Source of the DNA: Streptomyces sp. SUK 48
GTDB taxonomy: Bacteria > Actinomycetota > Actinomycetes > Streptomycetales > Streptomycetaceae
Direction: 5' to 3'
Assembly (NCBI RefSeq): GCF_009650765.1
Contig: NZ_CP045740.1
Location: forward strand, 4,626,001 to 4,690,000
Length of the DNA: 64,000 nt
Every line of letters starts with the position of its first letter. Position 1 is the first letter of the stretch. The position numbers were made by a program, and so were the translations under genes. Positions 9,037-45,755 of this stretch are shown one piece after another. Under the pieces are notes generated by a model. That model saw only the letters and a list, made by a program, of their open reading frames with translations. It was not told the DNA's origin and did no database searches.

Positions 9037-10155
9037 GTGGGCATCGAGAGCGACAAGGTCGTCTACGAGTACCTGAGCCGCGTCGGGGACATCGCGTCGC
9101 GACGGCAGTTGCCGTCGTCCACGCGCATGCGGCTGGTCTCGGAGCTGCGCAACGAGATCGACCGGGACCGGGCCAGGGCGACGGTGGACAGTCCCGCCGC
9201 GGTCCGCCGCATCCTGGACCGCCTGGGCACGCCCGACGAGGTGGTCGAGGCCGCGGGCGGCACCGGGCCCGCCGGCGGCGCGGGCCGCCCGTCCGCCGCC
9301 GTACCGGCGCAGCCCGTGCCGCGCGAGCGGGAGCCCGAGCGTGTCTCGCCGGGCGACGAGCGGCCGAAGGGGCTGCGCCGGGTCGTCCCCCGGCCGCGGC
9401 CCACCGAGCCCCGGCCCGAGCCGTCCGTGCCCAGGGACGGGCCGCCCGCCGCCTCGCACGAACTGTGGGAGGCCGCGCCGGCGCCCGACTGGTGGCGCAC
9501 CGCCGGCGGCCCCTTCGGCGGCGCCGGGAACAGCCCCTTCCTGGACACCGACCCGGTGCCGGGCTTCGTCGGCGGGGTGGAGATCCCGGATCTGCTCCGC
9601 CGCCCGCCGCACGAGATCGAGAAGGAGAAGGAGGAGAAGGAGGAGCGGGAGGAGAGGGAGAAGGCGGCGCGGGCACCCGCTCCCGCCCCCGCCCGGCGCT
9701 TCGGACTGTTCCCGCGCCGTACCCCGGCGGCCGCCTTGGACCCGGACCCGGCCCCCGAGCTCGCCCCGGACGCCGGTGCCGCCGCCCCCGCCCGCCGCCT
9801 CCTGCCCGGTCCCGCGGCCGGCTGGTCCAACCCGTTCCTGCTGCTGGCCGCCGCCGCGCTGGTCGCCGGGGCGGTGCTCGGCAACTGGTTCGTGCTGCTC
9901 GCGGGCTGGGCGATGGCCTACACCTCCCGGCGGCTGAGCCCCTCCGAGAGCAAGTGGGCCGTGCTCGTGCTGCCCGGCGGCGCGGCCGTGGCGGGCCTGG
10001 TGTGGCTCTGGGGCCGGCAGAACGGCCGCTGGGGCGACCCGATCGCCCAGGGGCAGATGGGCGACGCCCTCGCCCAGACCTGGCCCTGGGTGGTGCGGGG
10101 CGCGGCCGTCGCCTCGGCGCTCTACGTCCTGTGGCGCTCACAACGCAGGGGCTGA
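9037..10155 (+). CDS. HAAS-like N-terminal, multi-pass membrane protein
   Basis: A 372-aa protein starting at GTG 9037 with GGAGG six bases upstream. Residues 1-75 (EYLSRVGDIA…LRNEIDRD…RILDRLGTPDEVVEAAG) resemble the HAAS-type helical signalling domain that precedes membrane segments in DUF1700-like proteins. A long Pro/Glu/Arg-rich disordered section follows, with an acidic-basic stretch of repeated EKE units. The C-terminal third has two to three hydrophobic helices (LLLAAAALVAGAVLGNW and others). The stop codon lies inside the first unit of the 21-bp minisatellite. Function unknown; it may be a sensor or scaffold. Confidence 0.7.
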   Translation: MGIESDKVVYEYLSRVGDIASRRQLPSSTRMRLVSELRNEIDRDRARATVDSPAAVRRILDRLGTPDEVVEAAGGTGPAGGAGRPSAAVPAQPVPREREPERVSPGDERPKGLRRVVPRPRPTEPRPEPSVPRDGPPAASHELWEAAPAPDWWRTAGGPFGGAGNSPFLDTDPVPGFVGGVEIPDLLRRPPHEIEKEKEEKEEREEREKAARAPAPAPARRFGLFPRRTPAAALDPDPAPELAPDAGAAAPARRLLPGPAAGWSNPFLLLAAAALVAGAVLGNWFVLLAGWAMAYTSRRLSPSESKWAVLVLPGGAAVAGLVWLWGRQNGRWGDPIAQGQMGDALAQTWPWVVRGAAVASALYVLWRSQRRG

Positions 10156-10992
10156 CGCTCACCGCGCGAAGGCTGACGCTCACCGCGCGAAGGCCGACGC
10201 CCCACCGCGCGAAGGGCGGCGCCCACCGCGCGAAGGCTGACGCCCACCGCGTGAAGGGTGGCGCCAGCGGCGCTGAGGCCGATGCCCGCCGGGCGAAGGC
10301 CGACGCAGGTGGTCCGAAGGCTGGCGCCCGCTGGACGAAGGCTGATGCACGTGGCCGCGGAGGCTGACGCTCGCCTTGTGGAGGTGGCGTCAGCGGTGCG
10401 AAGGCCCGGCGCACGTGGTCCGAAGTCTGGCGCCTGCCGCACGAAGGCTGATGCCCGTGGCTGCGGAGGCTGACGCTCGCCTTGTGGAGGGTGGCGTCAG
10501 CGGTGCGAAGGCCCGGCGCACGTGGTCCGAAGTCTGGCGCCTGCCGCACGAAGGTTGATGCCCGTGGCCGCGGAGGCTGACGCTCGCCGCCGTGTGAAGG
10601 GTGGCGTCAGTGGCGCGAAGGCCCGGCGCACGTGGTCCGAAGTCTGGCGCCTGCCGCACGAAGGCCGATGCCCGTGGCCGCGAAGGCTGACGCTCGCCGC
10701 CGCGTGAAGAGTGGCGCCAGCGGCGCTGAGGCTGGCGCCCGCCGGACAAAGGCCGACGCCCGCCGGGCGAGGGCCGGCGCACGTGGCCCGAAGCTCGGCG
10801 CCTGCCGCACGAAGGCCGACGCCCGTGGCCGCGGAGGCTGACGCTCGCCGAGTGAAGGGTGGCGTCAGCGGCGCTGAGGCCGACGCCCGCCGTACGAAGG
10901 TCGATGCCCGCCGGGCGAAGGCCGACGCACGTGGCGGCGAAGGCCGGGGCCCCCGTACGAAGGCCGACGCCCGTGGCCCGAAGGCCGGATGG
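10150..10992. repeat. Intergenic minisatellite of about 21-bp units
   Basis: About 40 degenerate units built on GAAGGCYGACGCYCRC fill the whole gap between the membrane-protein stop and the HAD gene. Most units are 21 bp and some are 22 bp. A second-order repeat is superimposed, with a recognisable block starting at 10341, 10447, 10554, 10664 and 10815 (steps of 106, 107, 110 and 151 bp). The 22-bp units and unequal steps shift the reading frame, so although every frame stays open and reads as Lys/Ala/Asp/Arg heptads, this is most likely non-coding. The unit length equals two turns of B-DNA, which would place each copy on the same face of the helix. Confidence 0.85.
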
Positions 10993-11033
10993 GGGCCGGT
11001 GCGCCGTCGTAGCGGCCTGGCACCATGTCCCCC

Positions 11034-11642
11034 ATGGCCTCCCTCACCGTCGGCTTCGACCTCGACATGACCCTCATCGACTCCCGGCCGGGCATCCGCG
11101 CGTGCTACATCGCGCTGGCGGAGCGTACGGGGGCGTACATCGACGCCGACCTGGCGGTCACCCGGCTCGGGCCGCCGCTCGCGGACGAGCTGGTGAACTG
11201 GTTCCCGGCCGAGCGCGTGCCCGCGATGGCCGAGCTGTACCGGGAGATGTACCCGTCCATAGCCATCGCCGCGACCCCCGCCATGGCGGGCGCCCGCGAG
11301 GCCATGGCGGCGGTGCGCGCGGCCGGCGGCCGGACCATGGTGGTCACCGCCAAGTACGAGCCGAACGCGAAGCTGCACCTGTCCCATCTGGGCATCGAGC
11401 CGGACGTGGTCGTGGGCGACCTGTGGGCCGAGCAGAAGGCACGGGCGCTGCGCGAGCACGGCGCGGGGGTGTACGTCGGCGACCACACCGGCGATGTGCG
11501 CGGGGCGCGTACCGCGGGCGCGCTGTCGGTCGCGGTGGCGACCGGACCCTGCCCCGCGGACGAGCTGCGCGCGGCCGGGGCGGACGTCGTCCTGGACGAT
11601 CTGTCCGCCTTCCCGGCGTGGCTGGCCGATTACCGCCCCTGA
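11034..11642 (+). CDS. HAD-superfamily phosphatase (Gph-like)
   Basis: A 202-aa haloacid-dehalogenase hydrolase. The catalytic motif I DLDMTLIDS follows the first beta strand, motif II/III are VVTAKYE with K in LHLSHLG context, and motif IV is the acidic GDHTGD. A helical cap lies between about 20 and 85, as in phosphoglycolate-phosphatase-like enzymes. ATG 11034 (MASLTVGFDLD) gives the best N-terminus; ATG 11025 is nine bases upstream and in frame. Neither has a convincing Shine-Dalgarno. It is the first gene after the minisatellite. Substrate not predictable. Confidence 0.85.
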   Translation: MASLTVGFDLDMTLIDSRPGIRACYIALAERTGAYIDADLAVTRLGPPLADELVNWFPAERVPAMAELYREMYPSIAIAATPAMAGAREAMAAVRAAGGRTMVVTAKYEPNAKLHLSHLGIEPDVVVGDLWAEQKARALREHGAGVYVGDHTGDVRGARTAGALSVAVATGPCPADELRAAGADVVLDDLSAFPAWLADYRP

Positions 11643-45434: not shown

Positions 45435-45755
45435 AAAAGAGCCCGCACCGGCCCCACCGACCCCACCGGCCCCACTGGTCCAGTCGGACCTGCCGGTCGG
45501 GCCGGACCTGCCGGCCCCACGGGCCCCACGGGCCCCACGGGCCCCCACCGATCCAGTCGGCCTCACCGGTCCGGTCGGACCTGCCAGCCCAGTCGGTCCC
45601 TCCAGTCCGGTCGGCCCCACCGGCCCCACCGGCCCCACCAACTCCACCAACCACACCAACCCCACCGGAGCCGCCGGTCCAGTGGCACCACTCGGTCCCA
45701 CCGATCCAGGCGGCCCCGCCAGTCCCACCGACCCCACTGGCCCCCCCCGGAACCC
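45435..45755. repeat. 9-bp minisatellite with collagen-like codons
   Basis: About 35 degenerate nine-base units (CCCCACCGG, CCAGTCGGA and variants) fill most of the 410-base gap between the pyruvyl transferase and the acyl-CoA operon. Read forward it gives Gly-Pro-Thr triplets for 90 bases and then shifts frame; read in reverse it gives long Gly-x-y triplets ([20 protein letters not shown] and similar). No start, signal peptide or ribosome site attaches to either frame, so it is probably non-coding. The forward strand is strongly C-rich. Confidence 0.8.

Follow-up and report, generated by a model that had tools for sequence, protein, structure and literature searches.

A lineage-specific intergenic minisatellite in Streptomyces sp. 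SUK 48, probably born from the 3′ end of a membrane-protein gene

In Streptomyces sp. SUK 48, a HAAS-like membrane-protein gene and a HAD-family hydrolase gene are separated by a long array of imperfect tandem repeats, located within the 64-kb stretch of chromosome analyzed here (positions 4,626,001–4,690,000 of NZ_CP045740.1; hereafter, the window). Sequence comparison makes it quite probable that this array is a lineage-specific intergenic minisatellite, born from the 3′ end of the membrane-protein gene, and that it is a rapidly changing side product of DNA copying and not an element conserved for its function.

Results

Structure of the Array

TRF detects periods of 21, 42 and ~107/110 bp over positions 10150–10988, and segmentation of positions 10135–10988 yields 40 units, of which 26 span 21 bp, 10 span 22 bp, two span 20 bp and two span 24 bp (Table 1). 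These results establish as real the minisatellite of about forty 21-bp units between two genes put forward in the original prediction, although its mostly 21-bp spacing does not extend to the remaining 14 units. The array fills nearly all of the 869 bp between the stop codon of the membrane-protein gene and the ATG at 11025, and ranks second by TRF score among 149 non-overlapping rows in a 464-kb sample (the window and 20 further 20-kb stretches) in which it occupies more than one row. The recurring core proposed for the units holds for a close variant, which at up to two mismatches has 26 matches in the 64-kb window, 23 of them inside the array (2.4 expected), but not for the exact core GAAGGCYGACGCYCRC, which is found in the array three times (11, 18 and 29 times at up to one, two and three mismatches, respectively). 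The scarcity of exact and near copies hence indicates that the units are more degenerate than originally implied.

Table 1. Coordinates of the array, its flanking genes and associated elements in the window.
Feature	Position	Strand	Description	Basis
HAAS-like membrane-protein gene	9037..10155	+	Codon-usage start 9037, ORF-list start 8965; ends LWRSQRRG-stop	
Unit 1, probable seed	10135..10155	+	Final 7 codons, stop codon TGA among them; in array register	
Minisatellite	10156..10988	+	39 further imperfect units of 20–24 bp, consensus CGCCCGCCGCGCGAAGGCTGA	TRF, segmentation
Higher-order block, ~5 units (~107 bp)	10293..10698	+	3.8 copies, 91% matches	TRF
Promoter −10-like CACCAT + 7 nt + ATG 11034	11021..11033	+	Putative leaderless arrangement	
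HAD-family hydrolase gene	11034..11642	+	Pfam HAD, E 7.2e-16	

Two known classes of bacterial repeat were considered and rejected. The units abut, with no unique spacers between repeats, which discards a CRISPR array. Dispersed repeats of the MIRU type are recognized by the scattering of related units over many sites of a genome. In the SUK 48 genome, a single contig of 8.34 Mb, the exact core has only three matches, all within the array, and the 223 matches obtained at up to two mismatches compare with 196 for a reversed control pattern, arguing against a dispersed element. Across 295 genomes of the genus, a DNA search with the whole array returned matches in 90 at E ≤ 1e-3, own genome included; those outside the own genome are partial (best E 9.9e-9), and several of the 29 match loci inspected (L010–L038) fall in or beside other tandem repeats (e.g., L010, L011, L017, L018, L032). 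One of these, at positions 1235–1845 of L017 (genome G139), is a 20-bp minisatellite of ~30 copies with a GGAGGCAGACGCC core that bears some resemblance to the array at the sequence level.

Other repeats were noticed in the sampled DNA. The highest TRF score of the 149 rows belongs to a 276-bp repeat with 10 copies (L192, 5715–8464); 701 bases of it were translated, revealing one open frame on each strand, and we take the minus-strand frame to be HAMP-like. The window also harbors a tract of 9-bp and 73-bp repeats (45440–45744), which translates to Gly-X-Y-like sequence in at least two minus-strand frames; its 45440–45590 portion is intergenic by our own gene calls. Elsewhere in the same genome, two tandem tRNA-Asn (GTT) genes lie five bases apart (L200, 12116–12268).

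Origin of the Array at the Membrane-Gene End

The array was originally described as starting in the stop-codon region of the membrane-protein gene, and unit 1 is indeed the gene end itself, stop included (CGC TCA CAA CGC AGG GGC TGA; RSQRRG-stop). Of the 21 positions of this gene end, 16 are shared with the directly adjoining 21 bases, as compared with a mean of 7.0 and a maximum of 11 at 104 other loci, and outside the array region the window contains no 21-mer with as many as 16 matches to it. When unit 1 is set against 105 orthologous gene ends, the observed register is the best one, with a mean of 12.65 matches; the best-fitting of the 20 other rotations averages 8.49. Agreement between the gene end and the array consensus is limited to 14 of 21 positions. 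The gene ends of array-free relatives match unit 1 at 18 (G003), 17 (G365) and 15 (G327) of 21 positions; elsewhere in the window, beyond the array region, seven 21-mers score as high for G327 and none for G003 or G365. The WRSQ motif near the C-terminus of the membrane protein is present in 98 of 106 distinct orthologues, and it is this conservation of the gene end where the array is absent that leads us to propose the gene end as the seed. Copying of the gene's final 21 bases is hence the most likely starting point of the array.

By contrast, a free alignment of the last 30 bases of the gene to its own spacer fails to set this locus apart: it comes 43rd of 88, and 34 of its 60 controls reach at least its score. 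Across loci, only two of 88 beat all 60 controls (~1.4 expected; not significant overall), in a test whose controls include near-duplicate spacers and whose scoring penalizes scattered mismatches. The fixed-register comparisons (16/21 agreement and rotations) were made after this free-alignment test, and favor seeding at this locus. Copies of the gene end are also seen in other orthologous spacers, spanning 28 of 30 bases in L050, 20 of 21 in L098, and 13 of 14 in both L146 and L128; the number of controls scoring as high was 0, 1, 0 and 5 of 60, respectively.

Distribution in Near Relatives

Three near relatives with 96.0% (G327), 93.0% (G003) and 91.5% (G365) identity to the window over ~2 kb lack the array, and their spacers span 57, 113 and 65 bp, respectively. 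The best named match among those listed, Streptomyces murinus NRRL B-2286 (HAD 97%), has a contig that starts inside a related, diverged array and shares its downstream junction with the window. Scored against the array of the window, the S. murinus fragment reaches 67, whereas 200 Markov-simulated arrays do not exceed 49 and the top one among 66 other spacers, each 100 bp or longer, gives 45. A search of the S. murinus genome with the membrane-protein gene for the other flank of its array returned only eight weak matches. The lack of repeats in orthologous strains, which the original prediction had named as evidence against itself, is thus seen in three near relatives but not in S. murinus, and in other species the orthologous spacer does carry arrays, but with different units among those listed. 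These are differences between species; a bacterial VNTR is recognized by copy number varying among strains of one species.

The window, S. murinus and G327 form a trichotomy in a tree that omits G117, one of ten rows, which the anchor pattern missed. Since the tree does not order these three lineages, the array may have been gained in the ancestor of two of them or lost in G327. The persistence of the S. murinus array while diverging is a pattern that selection could also produce.

Orthologous Spacers Across the Genus

Both genes were present at 133 of 141 loci, the other eight being excluded because one flanking gene could not be located, and removal of 27 duplicates left 106 distinct loci; these are the best HAD matches among those listed, rather than a random sample of the genus. 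Their spacers measure between 20 and 869 bp, with a median of 139.5 bp, and the window has the longest of the 106. Tandem repeats with TRF scores of at least 100 occur in 26 of the 106 spacers, window included, and scores of at least 50 in 36, whereas five Markov controls average 0.0 and 4.6, respectively. The listed repeat units vary from species to species, some of them with a common element. In 40 genomes, seven membrane-HAD spacers reach a TRF score of 100, a count uncorrected for length; for eight neighboring spacers, some of which look badly bounded, perhaps from partial tblastn hits, the corresponding counts are 1/40, 3/33, 0/40, 1/40, 2/40, 0/40, 2/40 and 3/39. These figures make a modest case for the membrane-HAD spacer as an array hotspot.

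An element resembling GGGGCGCGGGGAACTGCGCG was observed in 24 of the 106 orthologous spacers (e.g., L066, L132, L156 and L080), with up to five same-orientation copies per spacer, and has no counterpart in the 64-kb window when up to two substitutions are allowed. Searched as literal strings, neither this element nor the array unit had a match in the literature, a weak test given that few papers print such letters.

A broader reading would see this spacer as a genus-wide nursery of recurrent, apparently unrelated minisatellites, some of them born from gene ends, whose length would set HAD expression or shield the promoter from read-through; we regard this reading as doubtful.

The Putative Promoter of the Downstream Gene

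The upstream gene is assigned as HAAS-like on a Pfam match that is below cut-off (E 1.4e-4). For the HAD-family gene, both the ORF list and the codon-usage call place the start at 11025, but ATG 11034 is the likelier start, because the arrangement of a promoter-like hexamer and start codon is conserved across loci. A CACAAT, CAGAAT or CACCAT hexamer followed by a start codon is found at 96 of 106 loci, versus one of 106 shuffled regions; among these 96 loci the gap is 7 nt in 95 and 6 nt in one, and the start codon is ATG in 95 and GTG in one. Judged from sequence, this pattern suggests a leaderless HAD transcript whose promoter survives next to very different spacers.

The end of the array lies 32 bases from the CACCAT hexamer at 11021, directly upstream of the conserved promoter motif, and the array might hence tune the HAD gene by analogy with the rnc-fpg1 repeats of Mycobacterium tuberculosis (ETR-F/VNTR3239), where, in the parts of the report drawn on here, intergenic repeat length is described as tracking fpg1 transcription and copy number as differing among isolates (PMC2734929). 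The two systems share an array between two conserved genes that reaches hundreds of bases in one lineage and is short in congeners. Going by the same parts of that report, they differ in that the rnc-fpg1 units are 37, 26, 18 and 16 bp long, as opposed to 20–24 bp, and in that the rnc-fpg1 array begins 40 bp past the stop codon, instead of inside it (PMC2734929). In Streptomyces, however, the three array-free relatives retain both the motif and the HAD gene behind spacers of 57–113 bp, and orthologous spacers carry arrays of differing listed units, or none, making a tuning role for the array unlikely.

Evidence on Function

A transcribed 3′ trailer or terminator, in which repeated RNA structure would end or stabilize the membrane-gene transcript, would fit an array that starts at a stop codon, is G+C-rich and has a strong absolute folding energy. 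Yet the predicted folding of the array is no better than that of 20 dinucleotide shuffles on either strand (z-scores of 0.00 and 0.43), a simple promoter and terminator consensus scan detected no terminator-like or sigma-70-like site, Rfam returned no match at gathering score, and the three near relatives do without the array altogether. We therefore consider a trailer very unlikely, and the folding results likewise disfavor the transcript of repeated hairpins that had been among the options first proposed.

The original prediction also had each core facing the same side of the helix, with a nucleoid or partition-like protein as a possible ligand of such a phased array. Although 26 of the 40 units measure 21 bp and runs within the array stay in phase, the unit ends sweep a full circle at 10.5 bp per turn (resultant 0.55) and 14 units depart from 21 bp, so that neither the common face nor the phased array holds as proposed; the confinement of exact core matches to this locus of the genome and the failure of three near relatives to keep the array further render such a binding array highly improbable.

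Translation was the remaining prospect, a heptad protein in one intact frame having been named at the outset as grounds for rejecting a minisatellite. A period of 21 bp does correspond to seven codons, and the minus-strand frames are mostly open, but all six frames contain between 1 and 8 stops (longest open run, 198 codons), with the 1, 2 and 3 stops of the minus-strand frames exceeding the ~0.8 each expected from composition. Furthermore, 14 of the 40 units change length and the two minus-strand ORFs that overlap the array have no Pfam family match, leaving a single-frame repeat protein scarcely credible. The slippage-prone tract is hence the best supported of the three options originally offered. 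The array shows no sign of function in these analyses, and may exert a weak or lineage-specific effect on its neighbors.

Arrays and Gene Ends in Streptomyces DNA

The position of arrays relative to genes was assessed in 1.26 Mb of Streptomyces DNA, with genes called by our own script; the sample comprises 61 stretches, and the arrays in it are not all independent, because 41 of these stretches, window included, are orthologous regions. At TRF scores of at least 80, 13 arrays overlap gene 3′ ends and one overlaps a gene 5′ end, against 12.2 expected in each case under random placement; at scores of at least 50, the overlaps are 20 (21.4 expected) for 3′ ends and three (16.7 expected) for 5′ ends. 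The 5′ depletion hinges partly on codon-usage start calls, which tend to move starts out of repeats, and is weaker when longest-ORF starts are used (30 versus 39.0 expected at scores of at least 80, and 51 versus 68.2 at scores of at least 50).

A preference of arrays for gene 3′ ends, suggested by a first count of 13 in 69 3′ edges versus one in 77 5′ edges, was discarded: random placement matches the 3′ overlap, and the contrast arises from the 5′ depletion. The pattern fits neutral array birth with removal of those arrays that harm gene starts.

Discussion

In the model that we favor, the minisatellite would have started with a tandem duplication of the gene's final 21 bases, encoding RSQRRG and the stop codon, that reached into the sequence 3′ of the membrane-protein gene, and slippage or unequal exchange would then have extended the array to ~40 units, which subsequently diverged; a block of five units would have been re-amplified later. 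The array would be tolerated because its first copy retains the real stop codon, leaving the protein unchanged, and because the conserved HAD promoter motif lies beyond its far end.

Bacterial intergenic minisatellites are an already known kind of element, of which this array is most likely one new instance. In the sections of a survey of bacterial satellites and minisatellites drawn on here, a table entry for Streptomyces coelicolor, as we read it, gives 38 satellites (PMC6749651). The array shares with these satellites the arrangement of at least four head-to-tail units of 10–200 nt, here 40 units of 20–24 bp; this assignment is made on unit count and length for an array whose units have diverged, while the survey also demands internal regularity by a measure of its own (PMC6749651). 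The tandem-repeat regions of archaeal Borgs, as far as the account consulted describes them, differ in consisting of A-enriched units on extrachromosomal elements, as opposed to G+C-rich units on a chromosome.

The locus offers a readable case of possible minisatellite birth, in which array-free relatives at 91–96% identity retain the likely seed, a gene end. In the DNA sampled, intergenic arrays that avoid gene starts and cross gene ends at chance frequency point to a simple selection-filter view of repeat survival in Streptomyces. Lastly, if its copy number varies, the locus would be usable as a marker for strain typing.
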